A stretch of 64,000 bases of DNA, taken from Lachnospiraceae bacterium (GTDB lineage Bacteria; Bacillota; Clostridia; Lachnospirales; Lachnospiraceae). The notes below the pieces were generated by a model. That model made no database searches. It saw only the letters and a list, made by a program, of their open reading frames with translations, and was not told the origin of the DNA. Position numbers and translations under genes: made by a program. The DNA is taken from contig JAFYMC010000019.1 of the NCBI GenBank assembly GCA_017556805.1, positions 52,854 through 116,853 on the forward strand. The letters run 5' to 3'. This document shows positions 21,696 to 61,166 of this stretch, in pieces; position 1 is the first letter of the stretch, and every line of letters starts with the position of its first letter.

Positions 21696-23261
21696 CTACT
21701 CTGTCACATACAAATACCTTGTCTGTTCACCTTTCTCTATACACAATACATTTCCGGAGGCATATACTCTATCTGCCGGATAACCCTCGGATACTTTCTG
21801 AAACTTCTTGTCAACTACATAGGCCATACCGTCCTCTTCTATTGCTAACGCATAGTCCCCTACAAATTCAGAGCAATCCGCAAAGTCTGCAATTATATTT
21901 CCTTTTGCATCTATATAGAACCGGTCATCATCCTGTGATGCAAAGTAATTCCCCGATTCGGACAAGTAAATCTTATTCTTCACCGTTACAACAACATCTT
22001 CCGGATTAGATACGATTTTCTCGATCCAAGAGTACTCTGCAGTACCCAATTCTCTTTCCTCAACCTCTGCCTTGGTAAAATCCAACAGGAAATAGTACTC
22101 CTTATTATCCGTTTTTGATTCCAGCCCCAACACCATTTGTTTCCCGATATTGTATAGATGCTGTCCTTCTTTTATAAAATACTCCGGCCAATACGAATAA
22201 TTCTCCACATCAAGATCGCATACCTTTAACAATTCATTAATATCTACCATCAATTCTTCCGAACCGTCTTTGCTTAACAAACCAACGCCGAAATACCAAC
22301 CGTTTTCCGATGCTACCCCATATTCGCCGTTCACTGCAAACAATCGCCTATTCCAATGAGAAGATATTCTTTCCTGCTTTAAAGTTGTCCTGTCCACCCT
22401 ATATATATCCGCATAATCTACACCCTTCCAAGTAATATAAAATTCATCCTCCATTACCGGCGTTACACGGTATGCCGATATTCTGGTAGTTGTTTGCGTA
22501 TATGTCTGTAACACAGCTTTTTCCAAATCATAGATTGCAGCATATACTCCGTCTGCATTCTCTTCCTCAGAATATTCCATATAACTATAAGTAATGCAGT
22601 TTTCATTAATATATACCGAACTCGGACGACAAATCGTCAATAATTCATTTCCCTTTTTATCAAAGCAAATTGCTTCGTCTTCACTTCCTAACGCAAACTG
22701 TCCCTCTGTGTTCGGCTCCACCCACCAAGAAGTATACTTGTTAGCAACAATCTCTTCACCGGTTTCATCTACCGCTCCATACAGTCCGTCCTTTTTTGTA
22801 ATAATGACACCGCCCTCACTCCACATAAGTTCCACACCCTCTGCAAGAGGAAACAGTTCTCTAATCTTTGCCGACGGCTTCGGCGTTGCAGTCGGCTCCG
22901 GTGTCACAGTCGGCTCCGGTGCCACAGTCGGCTCCGGCGTCACAGTCGCTTCCGGCGTCACGGTCGGTTCCGGTGTCACGGTCGGCTCCGGCGTCACAGT
23001 CGGTTCCGGTGTCACGGTCGGTTCCGGTGTCACGGTTGCTTCCGGGGTTACAGTCGACTCCGGTGCCTCTGTTGCTTCCGGTACCTCTGTTGCTTCCGGT
23101 ACCTCTGTTGCTTCCGGTTCACCCGTTACATCAGGTGTTTCGGTTAATTGTGAGTCCACATATATGGTTGACGTTCTTCCCTCCTCCGTGTCAGTTCCTT
23201 GACAACCGGAAAATCCCAGTACACATAACATTGACAATACTAAAAAAAGCTTTTTCTTCAT
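21696..23261 (-). CDS. secreted lipoprotein with TPEP-repeat linker and WG-like repeats
   Basis: 521 residues. It has a lipoprotein signal MKKKLFLVLSMLCVLGFSGC with the lipobox cysteine at residue 20. A linker from about 35 to 130 is made of VTPEPT/EVPEATE repeats. A globular part starts with KDGLYGAVDETGEEIVANKY, a WG-repeat-like unit, and is followed by beta-strand-rich sequence. Its function is unknown; a surface-anchored, wall-spanning role is suggested by the linker. The linker type is shared with the three lipoproteins at 58.4-62.0 kb. Its promoter overlaps a dyad next to the divergent XRE gene. Confidence 0.85.
   Translation of the reverse strand: MKKKLFLVLSMLCVLGFSGCQGTDTEEGRTSTIYVDSQLTETPDVTGEPEATEVPEATEVPEATEAPESTVTPEATVTPEPTVTPEPTVTPEPTVTPEPTVTPEATVTPEPTVAPEPTVTPEPTATPKPSAKIRELFPLAEGVELMWSEGGVIITKKDGLYGAVDETGEEIVANKYTSWWVEPNTEGQFALGSEDEAICFDKKGNELLTICRPSSVYINENCITYSYMEYSEEENADGVYAAIYDLEKAVLQTYTQTTTRISAYRVTPVMEDEFYITWKGVDYADIYRVDRTTLKQERISSHWNRRLFAVNGEYGVASENGWYFGVGLLSKDGSEELMVDINELLKVCDLDVENYSYWPEYFIKEGQHLYNIGKQMVLGLESKTDNKEYYFLLDFTKAEVEERELGTAEYSWIEKIVSNPEDVVVTVKNKIYLSESGNYFASQDDDRFYIDAKGNIIADFADCSEFVGDYALAIEEDGMAYVVDKKFQKVSEGYPADRVYASGNVLCIEKGEQTRYLYVTE
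22870..23110 (-). repeat. in-gene degenerate 18-bp tandem repeats coding for the TPEP linker
   Basis: About a dozen near-identical 18-bp units (pattern GGTCGGTTCCGGTGTCAC on the plus strand) encode VTPEPT hexapeptides. Copy number is likely variable between strains through slippage or recombination. Units are multiples of three, so the frame survives. Confidence 0.85.
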
Positions 23262-31866: not shown

Positions 31867-32672
31867 TCAAAAATAATGCTTCAACATCTTTTCCACAATT
31901 CGCATATCTAACGGATTCTCCGATGTTTCAAAGGTACACAAAAAATTATCTCCGAACCAATATCCGTTTTCTTCATACTTCGTTATCTTCTTGATTGCTT
32001 TTGCGCTGTACTCCGGATAATCCATCATCCCGAAATGTTCAAAATAAATCGTCTTTCTCTTTCCTTTATGTAACAGCGCAAAGTCCGGGTACATCCGGCT
32101 GCCATCCGTAAGTTCCAATTCCGGTTCATACACATAAGGAATTCCCATACGCCGGAACCCATCTGCCAAAATCTTCTCGGATTTTGACCTCACACATTCT
32201 CCTGCTTCTGTGTAGAGTTCTACCTCTTTCGGAAACTCATTTGTGTTGGCTCTTATTTTTTCTTTCCACTTGTTCACAAAGGTTTCTTCTGTTTCAAACC
32301 AAGGAGTAATCAAATTCTTTTTCTCTTCTGGCAGTTTCTCATAAATTGTTTGTGTATCATTTTCTCGATACTGCTTCAGAAAACATCAATTGCCTTTGCT
32401 CTCTTCTTCGCACATTCCAAAACTTCAATTTCATATTGTTTTTGTGCAAGGCGTTGTACGAGCTTATTTTCCTTTTTAGTCAAATATCTTCCATTTTTTC
32501 CTTTTTCCCTATCTCCTTCAATATAGTGATAATACTGAGGATATCTTCCTCTTGCTTTTAGAGTCACAAGACTTCCTTCCGGAGCCTTTGCAATCTCCTT
32601 CTCAAGCTTTGGCATAAGCTTTGCCAAACTGTCTCTTTCCTGTTCCAATTCAAATCTGCTTACTCTGTCCAT
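31867..32672 (-). pseudogene. frameshifted gene: coiled-coil + PD-(D/E)XK nuclease-like protein
   Basis: Two reading frames on the same strand form one protein if a single missing base is restored. The first (32376-32672, ATG at 32672, 98 residues) is charged and helical and ends at KRAKAIDVF. The second is open through the junction and continues KQYRENDTQ... to 31867. It contains ELTDGSRMYPDFALL and TIYFEHFG, a PD-(D/E)XK-like nuclease core with Glu in place of Asp/Lys spacing typical of short clostridial nucleases. An intact product would have about 268 residues. The break is at about 32376-32380 in a T-rich run, so a sequencing error or programmed frameshift is possible. It lies beside the 63-bp array. 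Confidence 0.65.
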
Positions 32673-32712: not shown

Positions 32713-33127
32713 TACCATGAGCATCTTCCTTTCTTTGTTTCTCATGGCACACTTCCGATACCCCATCTCCTCTTTTACCATGAAATATTACATTTCCTTA
32801 TTTTTCATGGTACACTATTTTATTCCAAGCACTTCCCTTACCCTGACAAAGCATTTTTGTTACTTCTTCATGGTACTTTTTCACAACTACTTCTTTTTCA
32901 TTGCCATGACAAAATACTTTTCTTATCGTCTCATGGCATTCCACCATTATCACCTTTATTTTTTTGCCATGATATCACCTACTATCCCCACTCCTCATGG
33001 TAATATCCAAAATCCTTCTTTTTTTCATACCATGAAAACGCACTTTTACAGAAATCTCATGGTAATCTTGTTTTCCACACTTTATATGTGTACCCTGAAA
33101 ATACCATGTTAACCTTATATCATGGTA
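32713..33127. repeat. array of seven 63-bp units made of alternating inverted 8-mers
   Basis: TRCCMTGA occurs at 32713, 32776, 32839, 32902, 32965, 33028 and 33091, exactly 63 bp apart each time. Its reverse complement TCATGGYA occurs at 32742, 32805, 32868, 32931, 32995, 33057 and 33120. The sequences between (21-22 and 25-27 bp) are all different and pyrimidine-rich on the plus strand. In the unit at 32902 both half-sites changed together (TGCC/GGCA), keeping the pairing. There is no conserved repeat of CRISPR length. 63 bp is six helical turns. It fills the gap between the broken nuclease gene and ilvE. Confidence 0.9.
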
Positions 33128-33352: not shown

Positions 33353-34423
33353 CTACTTTACTTCAACTACCCAGCCCTTGGTTTCCTTAATCTTACCAAG
33401 CTGGATGCCGGTGATGGTATCGTACAGCTTCTGGCTGTACTCTCCGATGGAACCGTCCTTAATCTGCATTACGCGGTCACCGAAACGAAGTGCACCTACC
33501 GGAGAAATAACCGCTGCGGTACCGGTACCGAATACTTCCTCTAAGGTACCTGCCTCGTATGCGTCCACAAGCTCCTGTGCGGATACCTTACGCTCCTCTA
33601 CCGGGAGTCCCCACTCCTTACAAAGCTCGATTACGGAGTTTCTGGTAATACCCGGTAAGATACTGCCGTTTAACATCGGAGTTACGATGGTGCCGTTAAT
33701 CTTAAAGAAGATGTTCATTGCGCCTACTTCTTCGATGTACTTACGCTCTACACCGTCAAGCCACAATACCTGAGAGTAGCCTGCATCGTGTGCCTTCATC
33801 TGTGCTGCCATGGAAGCCACATAGTTACCGCCGGTCTTTGCCTCACCGATACCGCCCTTTACGGCTCTTACATAGTCATCCTCAATCCAAATCTTAACCG
33901 GGTTAAGACCTTCCGGATAGTACGGACCAACCGGAGAAAGAATGATGATGAACTGGTACGTATCGGACGGACGCACACCAAGGAACGGGTCGGTTGCGAT
34001 GATGAACGGACGAATGTACAGGGAAGTACCCGGCTTATTCGGAACCCATGCCTCATCTACCTTAACTACAGCCTTAACCGCCTCTACGAAATCCTCAATC
34101 GGAAGCTCCGGAATGCACAGTCTCTTATTGGTGTTATTGGTACGCTTTGCGTTCATGTCCGGACGGAACAAAAGTACTCTGCCGTCATCAGCACGGTAAG
34201 CCTTTAAGCCCTCGAACATTTCCTGACCGTAATGGAATACCATTGCGGACGGCTCTAACACGATCGGCTGATACGGTACGACACGTGGGTCAAACCAGCC
34301 CTTGCCGGTCTCATAATTCATAATAAACATGTGGTCGGTAAAAATGGTACCGAACTTTAACGGGTTGTCCGGAGTCGGCAACGGCTTCGGATTGGTAGTC
34401 TTCTCGATTCTGATGTTTAACAT
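33353..34423 (-). CDS. ilvE: branched-chain amino acid aminotransferase
   Basis: 356 residues of the larger class IV transaminase form. It has MVFHYGQEMFEGLKAYR, the PLP lysine region GGIGEAKTGGNYVASMAAQMKA, YIEEVGAMNIFF and a phosphate loop FGTGTAAVISPVG. It catalyses the last step of Leu/Ile/Val synthesis and the first of their breakdown. The start at 34423 follows AGGAGGAGAG; the 12 codons upstream overlap it. It lies 16 bp after folA. Confidence 0.95.
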   Translation of the reverse strand: MLNIRIEKTTNPKPLPTPDNPLKFGTIFTDHMFIMNYETGKGWFDPRVVPYQPIVLEPSAMVFHYGQEMFEGLKAYRADDGRVLLFRPDMNAKRTNNTNKRLCIPELPIEDFVEAVKAVVKVDEAWVPNKPGTSLYIRPFIIATDPFLGVRPSDTYQFIIILSPVGPYYPEGLNPVKIWIEDDYVRAVKGGIGEAKTGGNYVASMAAQMKAHDAGYSQVLWLDGVERKYIEEVGAMNIFFKINGTIVTPMLNGSILPGITRNSVIELCKEWGLPVEERKVSAQELVDAYEAGTLEEVFGTGTAAVISPVGALRFGDRVMQIKDGSIGEYSQKLYDTITGIQLGKIKETKGWVVEVK

Positions 34424-34439
34424 ATTTCTCTCCTCCTGC

Positions 34440-34934
34440 TTACTTTTTCTTACGGACATAACGACAGCGCTCGTAAATCAAATCATAATAGGTCTGCTCG
34501 TCGGAAACATCTGCCAGTTCCCACTCCGGATCCTTGTCCAGATTCGGGAAATACGTGTCCGCATCATATGCGTAATCAATCTTTGTAATAAAGGCTTCGT
34601 CGCAATACGGTAAAAACTGTTCAAACACCGATGCTCCACCGATGACATACACCTGGTCGGTCGGATACTGAGAAATCTCTTCCATGGCCTCGTCAAAACT
34701 ATGTACCACCGTCACATCGCTAAGCTTTAAATCTTTCTTCTTCGTCAAAATAATGTTGTTGCGGTCCCGAGGCGGCTGTCCTGCGGAAAACTCTTCCTGC
34801 ACACAGCGTCCCATTACCACAGTCTTATACATGGTCTCAAAGCGAAAGAAACGCTCATCCGTCGGAATTCGGACCAATCGTCCGCCCTTGTTTCCGATGG
34901 CCCAATTGTTATCTACGGTAGCAATCAGTTTCAT
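34440..34934 (-). CDS. folA: dihydrofolate reductase
   Basis: 164 residues: MKLIATVDNNWAIGNKG, VVMGRCVQEEF, NNIILTKK and VYVIGGASVFEQFLPYCDEAFITKI are the DHFR folate and NADPH motifs. The usual Pro-Trp after the first loop (GKLPW) is replaced by GGRLVRIPTDERFF, a divergent variant seen in some Clostridia. That could affect antifolate sensitivity (inference). It is transcribed ahead of ilvE. Confidence 0.92.
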   Translation of the reverse strand: MKLIATVDNNWAIGNKGGRLVRIPTDERFFRFETMYKTVVMGRCVQEEFSAGQPPRDRNNIILTKKKDLKLSDVTVVHSFDEAMEEISQYPTDQVYVIGGASVFEQFLPYCDEAFITKIDYAYDADTYFPNLDKDPEWELADVSDEQTYYDLIYERCRYVRKKK

Positions 34935-58371: not shown

Positions 58372-59748
58372 CTATTCAAAAAACAGCAGCTCGGAATCCC
58401 CCTTCTTCAGTCGTACTATGGAATCTACACTCCAAGTGGGCGTATCCAGATACATTGTTCTGTCATATCCGGTCCAGTAGAATGCAATGTCTTCATACGC
58501 CTCCGGGCATCCCACAACATAAACCACTCTGATTTTTCCGTCTTCCTCCATGGTGTCTCTCGTTTCCGTTGCCACCGTCAAGGAGAAGACACCGTTCTCT
58601 CCGTTCACCGTGTGAGGCTCTGCCAACGAATACGCCCTCGGCGAATATAATGCTCCCGTTCGTTTATCTACCACGCCGCTTATGGAATACGGCATAATCA
58701 ACGCCCCCTCCGAACTATGCTCCGGCGTATAACAAAAGGTTGCTGTCATAATCTTTGTTCCGTCTCCCGGAAACTCCTCCGAAAGGGAAAACTCTACTTC
58801 TGTTTTCTTAAATTCCATGGAAGCTACCTTATAGGTTTTCGTTTCCGGATTTATGGTTCCGGTGGATACCGTTCCGAAATAGGTATGTTTTCCTTCGCCT
58901 CTTGCAGTCAGACCATGCTTATCAAAGTAGTGCTCTCCATCTCCGGCTTCCTCCAGGGCCGGCGTCTCTACCGGTTCCGTCTCTGTCCCGGTAGCCAGTC
59001 CTTCGTTTACACCGAACACAAGCAGGTCCGACTCTCCGTGACGGATATAATTTAATAGCTTCCAATTTCCCGCCCGTTCGGCATAAGACTCATTATCCGG
59101 ACTTCCGGTCAGGTAAAATCCGGCATCCTCATAGTCCGCCGGGCAAACCACCGTATACTTCTCGGTATAATACGGGTATGTCAGGGACGGTTTCTCATAT
59201 TCAAAGGTTATTCTTAACTCGTAGCTTTTTTCTCCCTGTTTTAACAGCGCGAATTGTTCCATTTTATCGGAGGACGGGAAGAACGCCTTTCCGCTTTTTA
59301 AATCTACAAATCCGCCCATAGTAGCGGTAGACCAGCCCTTCTTTTTATTGACAACCGGAATACTATGTAGCGTTGCACAAATCGTCTTGGTTCCGTCTCC
59401 GTTCTCCTCTTCGGTTACGGTAAATATCGCCTCGCACACTGCCGACTCTATGACATAGTTCCCGGCCGCATCCCAGCCGACGATTGAAAGCCCCTGATAA
59501 TCATATCGTCCCGCACCCAATACCTTAATGCCGTTGGCCTCCATATAATTTTCCGCTACCGGCGTTGCGGTAGGCGCAGAAGTCGCCGTCGGCTCCGGCG
59601 TTGCGGTAGCCTCCGGTATTTCCGTAGGGGATGCCGCCTCTGTCCCCTTATCCTGCGGAGTCTTCTCCCCCGGATTTTTGTCGCAGCCGGCTGTTACCAG
59701 AGCTAATAGGGCTGCCGTTGCCACGATGTAAAGTCCTTTAAGTTTCAT
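58372..59748 (-). CDS. tandem lipoprotein paralog 1, 458 residues
   Basis: Signal MKLKGLYIVATAALLALVTAGC with lipobox Cys22, then a Pro/Thr/Glu-rich linker (ATATPEPTATSAPTATP). Two related globular halves follow: the first from MEANGIKVLGAGRYDYQGLSIVGWD, the second from FDKHGLTARGEGKHTYFGTV. Both halves carry a Y-T(E)KYTVVCPADYEDAGFYLTG / VYVVGCPEAYEDIAFYWTG strand, so the domain is duplicated. No known enzyme motif. Last of three co-directional paralogs. Confidence 0.85.
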   Translation of the reverse strand: MKLKGLYIVATAALLALVTAGCDKNPGEKTPQDKGTEAASPTEIPEATATPEPTATSAPTATPVAENYMEANGIKVLGAGRYDYQGLSIVGWDAAGNYVIESAVCEAIFTVTEEENGDGTKTICATLHSIPVVNKKKGWSTATMGGFVDLKSGKAFFPSSDKMEQFALLKQGEKSYELRITFEYEKPSLTYPYYTEKYTVVCPADYEDAGFYLTGSPDNESYAERAGNWKLLNYIRHGESDLLVFGVNEGLATGTETEPVETPALEEAGDGEHYFDKHGLTARGEGKHTYFGTVSTGTINPETKTYKVASMEFKKTEVEFSLSEEFPGDGTKIMTATFCYTPEHSSEGALIMPYSISGVVDKRTGALYSPRAYSLAEPHTVNGENGVFSLTVATETRDTMEEDGKIRVVYVVGCPEAYEDIAFYWTGYDRTMYLDTPTWSVDSIVRLKKGDSELLFFE

Positions 59749-59780
59749 ACTCGTCCCCTCCTTGGTATCAGCTTATCATT

Positions 59781-61166
59781 TTACCGAAAAAACATCAACT
59801 CATATTCCCAATGTTCGATTTCTTTTAAAGAGGACATTTCCGACTCATTCAAATACACATGCTCGTCCTCTTCTATTTCTGCATATGCAGTCATGCATAA
59901 TACCGCATCATTATAGTCTTCCGGACAAATTAGCGTATATGTCGTACTGCATTTTACCATTCCGTCAACCGGTTCTTCCTCCACAGACTCTCTTCCCACC
60001 AATATGGTAAATTCCACTTCGTCCTTCTCCAACATATATAGATCTGCTAAAAAATATGTGCGTGGGCGATATACCAACCCTGTCCTTTTGTCTGCAATTG
60101 CGCACTTTATGTACGGTATCTTTACTTCATCCTCGGATACCATCTCAAACATATCAATTACATTCCACTGAATCTTCTTTGTACCGTCGCCCAACAACTC
60201 CTCCGTTATTGAAATCGTTGTCGTAAGTTCCTTCTCATTAAGAGCAACCGACTCCCAGCGTCCCTTTTCATCATTCCGCTTTCGCAACGCTTCCGTACCC
60301 AGCCAGGTATAGATTCCTTCTCCCTTGGTAGAATACCCCATTGTCTCAAAATAGTTCTCTTCCACCAATTCCGCCCCGTCTACCGGTTTCTTTTCCGGTT
60401 CGGTTGCCAACGCCTTATTTACACCGAACACCAACAGCTCCGTTTCTCCGTGACGGATAAAGTTTAACTTTTTCCAAAGACCCATACGCTCCGTGAACGC
60501 TTCATAGTCCGCAATACTGTCCCAACCGGTGATATAGAAACCTGCATCCTCATACTCGGACGGACATACCAACGTATACTTCTCCGTATAGTACGGACTT
60601 GTCGTCGACGGAAACTCATACTCCACCGCAAGCTGCAAGTCATATTCCTTCTCTTCTTGCTTTAACCGTGTAACCTGCGCAATCCCCGAATTCATCGGAA
60701 CAAAGGACTTTCCGGTCTGTAAATCCACAAAGCCTCCCATTGCAAGGGCACTCCATCCACCGTTCTCCGCTACATGCGGAACCAGATTTAACGTAGCATA
60801 AATCATTTTCGTCCCATCTCCCCGGTCCTCTTCCTTCACTTCAAAGGAATACTCGGAATTTCCGAGGGTTACAACCGCCTCTCCATTCTCGTCCCATTCG
60901 GTTACAACAAGTCCCTCACAGGTGTGATGTCCTGCGCCCAACACCTCAATCCCGTTGGCCTCCATATAGTTTGCCGGTACCGGCGTTGCAGTCGGTTCCG
61001 GGGTAGCCGTAGGCTCCGGAGTAGCGGTTGCCTCCGCTGCTTCTGTAGGTGACGCCGCCTCTGTCACTTGATTCTCCGGGGCTTCTTCCCCCTGATTACT
61101 TCCGCAGCCTGCTGTTAAAGCCAACAGTGCTGCTGTTGCCAATACATAAAGTCCTTTGCGCTTCAT
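59781..61166 (-). CDS. tandem lipoprotein paralog 2, 461 residues
   Basis: Signal MKRKGLYVLATAALLALTAGC (Cys21), TPEPTATP linker, then MEANGIEVLGAGHHTCEGLVV and a second half from YFETMGYSTKGEGIYTWLG. It shares the domain duplication of paralog 1 and is closest to it in the first half (YTEKYTLVCPSEYEDAGFYITG). Spacing to the neighbours is about 30 bp, so the three genes form one operon behind the promoter at 62020. Confidence 0.85.
   Translation of the reverse strand: MKRKGLYVLATAALLALTAGCGSNQGEEAPENQVTEAASPTEAAEATATPEPTATPEPTATPVPANYMEANGIEVLGAGHHTCEGLVVTEWDENGEAVVTLGNSEYSFEVKEEDRGDGTKMIYATLNLVPHVAENGGWSALAMGGFVDLQTGKSFVPMNSGIAQVTRLKQEEKEYDLQLAVEYEFPSTTSPYYTEKYTLVCPSEYEDAGFYITGWDSIADYEAFTERMGLWKKLNFIRHGETELLVFGVNKALATEPEKKPVDGAELVEENYFETMGYSTKGEGIYTWLGTEALRKRNDEKGRWESVALNEKELTTTISITEELLGDGTKKIQWNVIDMFEMVSEDEVKIPYIKCAIADKRTGLVYRPRTYFLADLYMLEKDEVEFTILVGRESVEEEPVDGMVKCSTTYTLICPEDYNDAVLCMTAYAEIEEDEHVYLNESEMSSLKEIEHWEYELMFFR

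Follow-up and report, generated by a model that had tools for sequence, protein, structure and literature searches.

What is a periodic array of short, alternately inverted sites doing beside a gene for an uncharacterised protein, and do the two belong together? The array in question occupies positions 32713..33127, with no strand assigned, of the 64,000-nucleotide stretch of a Lachnospiraceae bacterium genome analysed here (contig JAFYMC010000019.1; hereafter the window), and comprises 14 alternately inverted 8-bp half-sites over 415 bp with a period of 63 bp, i.e. six helical turns. The explanation we favour, to which we assign a probability of roughly 0.6, is that the array is a DNA platform bound by the N-terminal domain of the protein encoded just behind it, and that dispersed arrays of the same kind depend on that protein, in a manner resembling REPIN-RAYT systems.

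A motif scan of the window reproduced what the first-pass annotation had described: seven forward half-sites (TRCCMTGA, F) at 32713, 32776, 32839, 32902, 32965, 33028 and 33091, every step being 63 bp, and seven reverse half-sites (TCATGGYA, R) at 32742, 32805, 32868, 32931, 32995, 33057 and 33120, with a sole +1 shift at 32995. The intervals are N21 (N22 once) and N26 (N25 once), no two of them alike, and only three exact matches to either motif lie outside the array in the 64-kb window (15721, 21174 and 54460). The same annotation was right to set the array apart from a CRISPR, which has a long near-identical repeat and unique spacers whereas here 8–10 bp are conserved in alternating orientation, and from a simple tandem repeat, as the array is absent from the Tandem Repeats Finder output. 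The nearest half-site is 40 bp from the ATG of a nuclease-type gene (32672-31867, minus strand) for an uncharacterised PD-(D/E)XK-type protein of 268 amino acids, the frame of which is interrupted here and intact in relatives.

Gene and array are linked far beyond this locus (below, G000 denotes the window's own genome, G001 and G003–G009 its genus relatives, and L numbers individual loci). Members of the gene family occur in 100 of the 299 Lachnospiraceae genomes sampled, each of a different genus, with up to eight matches per genome. We analysed 69 family loci (L070–L138) outside the genus or elsewhere in G000, made up of the 29 best matches and 40 others taken roughly in list order with some skipped, these 40 being chosen before their upstream DNA was seen. 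The control was the branched-chain aminotransferase-like gene at 33353..34459 (minus strand), the upstream neighbour and landmark of our locus, which from its sequence we take to be ilvE; this one gene was used in 28 genomes, the 29th sequence being too short. When four genus loci were added and six of the resulting 73 with less than 250 bp upstream were dropped, a significant periodic array was detected directly 5' of the gene (within 800 bp) in 55 of 67 members, versus 0 of 28 controls. Alternation, scored as an exact 7-mer against its reverse complement (at least three), was found upstream in 32 of 68 loci (one of the 69 having less than 150 bp upstream) and downstream in 5 of 69, with none in the 28 controls or in 340 shuffles. 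Members thus generally have a periodic array, and about half of them show strict alternation. In 28 of 36 cases no more than 120 bp separate the array from the gene start. The half-sites themselves vary between clades (GACACGCA, CAGTCGG, AACTGTA, CGGTCAC, TATCCGCA and CAGGGAA among them). No partner gene common to most loci was seen in the flanks examined, the largest neighbour cluster covering seven loci. When 398 genomes of the phylum were searched with a profile, full-length members turned up in no others than the five Lachnospiraceae genomes that matched; matches outside this family of bacteria were partial, mostly to the C-terminal domain, with two to the N-terminal part alone. As a separate observation, many otherwise different half-sites have GTA (or TAC) as one of their ends, which would fit a binding site with a single conserved edge.

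The periods follow the DNA helix. Among the 49 retained after leaving out three lags below 45 bp and three near 106 bp (twice 53) from the 55, values cluster at 51–54 bp (26), 62–64 bp (12), 71–75 bp (8) and 83 bp (1), plus 49 and 56 bp. Among repeat lengths of 6 to 20 bp the best fit was 10.45 bp (R 0.80), and none of 20000 uniform draws reached the R obtained at 10.5 bp; related genes are not independent, and the 15 distinct period values alone still give R 0.60. Steps that depart from the period behave likewise: in the TACCATGA arrays, the 24 same-orientation steps other than about 63 bp measure 32 (1), 74 (2), 95 (3) and 104–107 bp (18), close to 3, 7, 9 and 10 turns; fitted freely, they give 10.55 bp (R 0.95). 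This count takes in F-F and R-R steps across shared gaps, and the 106-bp centre was probably inherited as a single feature, which leaves few independent events. The F-R and R-F sub-spacings vary between families and their sums stay near whole turns, as expected of proteins on one face of a duplex rather than of RNA. Both the quantisation of periods at about 10.45 bp and the near-whole-turn off-period steps support the preference of the first-pass annotation for a helically phased array to which a protein would bind. The adjoining nuclease-type family, the dispersed arrays and the clade differences in motif lay beyond its view.

Comparison of orthologous arrays revealed where the constraint lies. 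G006 and G007 carry arrays at the same locus, downstream of ilvE, and in the three pairwise comparisons the 8-mers are 93–96% identical and the intervals 62–65%; a second orthologous pair (L021/L025), in a locus where no family gene was recognised, gave 96% for the 8-mers versus 62% for the intervals. On the plus strand of the window one frame is open for 132 of 138 codons, a feature that the annotation had noted and judged less likely to be coding. It is not conserved in the two orthologues, which have stops in every frame and longest open runs of 77/138 (G006) and 104/180 codons (G007). We therefore rejected a protein-coding repeat, and the absence of a frame open through both of these arrays indicates selection on the half-sites as nucleic acid.

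Which part of the protein might read the half-site is suggested by a mosaic. In the window, as assembled here, the gene is split by the frame break into an N-terminal part (32376..32672, minus strand; 98 amino acids), the proposed half-site-binding domain, and a C-terminal PD-(D/E)XK-type part (31867..32313, minus strand), and open copies are present in G006, G007, G004 and G009. The window's N-terminal part is 82.7%, 87.8% and 52.6% identical to those of G006, G007 and G004 respectively. At the ilvE locus of G004 the C-terminal part of the protein is 88–98% identical to the window, G006 and G007 sequences, whereas its N-terminal part (residues 1–148) is only 50–61% identical to them, and the array beside this gene has the motif TACCATT(G) in place of TACCATGA. 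The coincidence in G004 of a diverged N-terminus with a changed motif, which is the main ground for this view, points to the N-terminal part as the likely reader of the half-site; across 33 families the trend between motif and N-terminus is weak (rho 0.089, permutation p 0.047; 0.094 with the C-terminal part controlled).

The arrays are not confined to the vicinity of the gene. The spaced half-site pattern, which the annotation proposed to look for in other Lachnospiraceae, is indeed present in relatives rather than absent from them. G000 has 13 forward and 11 reverse matches, and none for the pattern read backwards as a control; among them are one further array, on a different contig, and a lone pair on a third contig. 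Six of 61 genomes searched matched, namely G000, its genus relatives G006 (43 forward matches), G007 (56) and G004 (2), and two genomes from other genera that have a single matching place apiece, no more than expected by chance; the backward pattern gave 0 or 1 match per genome. In a GTDB-species collection the exact three-site pattern was found in 19 stretches, only in three Lachnospiraceae metagenome-assembled genomes (RGIG5355 from sheep colon, RGIG4203 from roe deer colon, and SIG307). A sister motif, TACCATT..AATGGTA, occurs 17 times in G009, 11 in G007, 5 in G004, 4 in G001 and once in G006; its backward control matches up to 10 times, which we read as an adjoining site pair within those arrays. 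One kind of array or the other occurs in six genomes, five of which were found to have the gene at the ilvE locus; four genomes have neither kind, and in none of them was that gene found. Two of these four (G003 and G008) carry other, distant or broken, family members elsewhere. The exception among the six, G001, has sister arrays and no detected family gene; the contig stops a short way past the array.

The layout of half-sites was compared in 23 distinct arrays or fragments. Frequently F-29-R-33-F-30-R-33-F-30-R is followed, after a step of about 76 bp, by F-30-R-33-F-30-R-33-F-29-R; others are unbroken runs of units (seven in the window, nine in its G007 counterpart) or single F-29-R pairs. 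Array loci range from none to about ten per species, and gene-remote arrays are more numerous than the gene-linked one. The same situation was encountered in another genus: in G314, assembled as a single contig and carrying three family genes, the motif that belongs to one of them (TACCATA-N18-TATGGTA) has 32 forward matches at seven places, six of them (one a lone pair) away from that gene, with steps within each array of 72 bp or a multiple. No match to this pattern was found in three other single-contig genomes. Mobility with clean ends, as of a discrete mobile element, was considered and rejected: the array-less orthologous gaps of G003 and G005 (L025 locus) and of G004 (L007 locus) differ in their flanks too, and neither a target duplication nor a tidy boundary could be defined. 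We also observed that five contigs of metagenome-assembled genomes (L019, L020, L022, L026 and L032) stop about 1 kb or less from an array; arrays or adjoining repeats may break assemblies, and true array numbers may be higher.

The encoded protein bears the conserved acidic residues and the fold of the PD-(D/E)XK superfamily. E166, P196-D197 and E212-H213 are invariant in 30 of 30 aligned members, and the C-terminal part matches Bax1 in fold comparison; the usual ExK position lacks its lysine, and nuclease catalysis is a prediction from sequence. The C-terminus of PADLOC PDC-S68 matches the intact G006 protein (9.6e-23), as does HEAT_CxxC_PDDEXK (6.7e-6). For the N-terminal part, fold comparison returned only generic coiled-coil matches, which leaves room for a known fold. 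A sequence search of the PDB gave nothing credible, and no Pfam or NCBIfam model matched the family above cut-off; at E 0.1 the 30 members matched 20 Pfam families, with no Y1 transposase, Nop or Cas model among them. Viral or plasmid carriage was rejected: neither the exact three-site pattern nor a confirmed relative of the protein was found in viral_contigs, and a plasmid search with the protein gave partial matches only, in four records. One record of the phage collection, MT839528.1 (4212 bp, 'Bacteriophage sp.', human faeces), encodes a near full-length relative (31% identity) and is perhaps a misassigned chromosomal fragment. The window's own genome has a second, open family member, L099 (G000:C29, 2555-3397, minus strand), downstream of comEC, with an array of a different motif (CCGACTAA) and a period of 53 bp 5' of the gene; this neighbour and motif type are common to three other genera. 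Elsewhere in the window, TCCGG-rich 18-bp (54-bp) tandem repeats occur at two places (22875-23118 and 59559-61036).

Taken as a mechanism, the favoured explanation would run as follows. The N-terminal part of the protein (residues ~1–148) would bind each 8–10-bp half-site, which we consider quite probable; alternating inverted sites would suit a dimer, and whole-turn spacing would place the units on one face of the helix, allowing the protein to coat the array cooperatively. The array at the gene's own locus lies just before the start codon, presumably over the promoter, and the protein probably controls its own gene through the half-sites. Dispersed arrays would be non-autonomous copies recognised by the same protein. 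The nuclease domain may promote copying or homogenisation of arrays by cutting followed by repair, and so help them to spread, a step to which we give slightly less than even odds. More tentative still is the thought that these loci represent a new class of domesticated selfish system, in which a PD-(D/E)XK enzyme with an exchangeable N-terminal domain would read its own phased array and copy it by duplex cutting, as an independent, non-HUH counterpart of REPIN-RAYT.

Three other explanations have to be set against this one. The array could be transcribed and fold as a string of hairpins, or be processed to guide RNAs of CRISPR or TIGR type, and the annotation had kept hairpins as its alternative; the mutual complementarity of the half-sites, the variable intervals in the window's genus and the fact that the purine-rich strand of the window array is the strand of the nuclease-type gene all speak for it. 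However, complementarity stops at the 8-mers: the first base pair inside them forms no more often than expected (F-R, 0.27 vs 0.27 expected; R-F, 0.20 vs 0.41 expected). Covariation is also scarce. The joint change at 32902/32931 (TGCC..GGCA), to which the annotation drew attention, is present but does not reflect a rule, as 119 F-R pairs over the 23 arrays contain three joint and 18 single variants at the second position; it is one of few such cases, perhaps a copied unit. Moreover, the periods are quantised by the DNA helix, intervals hardly differ among the units next to the G314 gene, Rfam gave no match at E 0.1, the whole array gave one weak phage match (E 0.1), and Nop and Cas models are missing from the Pfam families mentioned above. 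Hairpins and guide RNAs are thus disfavoured, and we consider their involvement improbable. Least probable of all is an operator that represses its own gene only, other arrays being unrelated or old duplicates: closeness of the array to the gene start would suit it, but gene-remote arrays are phased like gene-linked ones, show the same constraint on their 8-mers (L021/L025) and outnumber the gene-linked array.

A host chromosome-organising or regulatory array, comparable to parS/matS or long operators, could be bound by the same or another protein and be kept for its benefit to the host, the nuclease having no role in spread. Several results lean this way and weigh against our preferred explanation. 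Arrays are constrained between species and, by a crude open reading frame call, 14 lie between tandem and 5 between convergent genes, so that of the 19 whose neighbours were both called none stands in a divergent gap. The position of some family genes is also preserved across genera. The gene upstream is common to seven of the sampled loci (comEC according to Pfam at L099, the locus tested), and four of the seven, each from a different genus, have a CCGACTA/CCGACTG motif in common, with 55–64% protein identity. Strict alternation in about half of the members rather than most, and array numbers reaching about ten loci and not more, slightly lowered our confidence in a protein-dependent, dispersed array system and raised that in a host array. 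Yet within a single genus some species have no array locus and others about ten, motifs vary between clades and active-site residues are invariant in the 30 aligned members, all of which argues the other way, and we regard a host array as unlikely.

Among the closest known proteins are the Bax1/DUF790 nuclease (XPB partner), I-Bth0305I, Hjc and TnsA; unlike Bax1-type nucleases, the present family has its own N-terminal helix-strand-helix part, linked arrays and no neighbour gene common to most loci. The PADLOC PDC-S68 and HEAT_CxxC_PDDEXK defence candidates have a related C-terminal nuclease domain, but the PDC-S68 models span about 1200 positions, of which only the last ~120 match the family. 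Iterons, parS/parC and phased operator arrays place repeated sites at whole helix turns for cooperative binding; here, in contrast, alternating inverted half-sites form mostly 51–75-bp units, in several chromosomal copies, linked to a gene with a nuclease domain. TIGR-Tas systems have a Nop-domain protein beside an array, and, as stated, no Nop model was among the Pfam matches of 30 members.

We found no description of such a system in the open-licence PMC literature, which covers neither preprints nor most subscription papers, and a large set of these gene-array systems in gut Lachnospiraceae is apparently undescribed. A nuclease-type family found in a third of the sampled genomes is tied to a precise DNA architecture. 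If our explanation holds, a modular nuclease would offer a large natural set of DNA-binding specificities, each of which could be read directly off the array next to its gene. Roughly one in three of the sampled Lachnospiraceae genera has the gene, and proteins already paired with their motifs would be available by the dozen.

The nearest analogy is REPIN-RAYT (the REPtron), in which a REP-associated tyrosine transposase gene accompanies dispersed inverted palindromes (PMC8049555; PMC8266576). The likeness extends to the pairing of a gene with a repeat family cognate to it, to the scattering of these repeats through intergenic DNA as inverted pairs around a spacer of diverse sequence, and to their presence also in genomes lacking the gene; in G006, G007, G000, G314 and G009 repeats are likewise both dispersed and gene-adjacent. 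The differences are that the enzyme here is of PD-(D/E)XK type and not HUH/Y1, that sites stand in arrays, some of at least 20, phased by whole helix turns, that there is no sign of a stem beyond the 8-mers, and that a genome may hold up to eight gene-family matches. By its enzyme and its phased arrays the window system is not a member of REPIN-RAYT and, if our explanation is correct, gene-plus-dispersed-repeat systems of this kind would have arisen at least twice.
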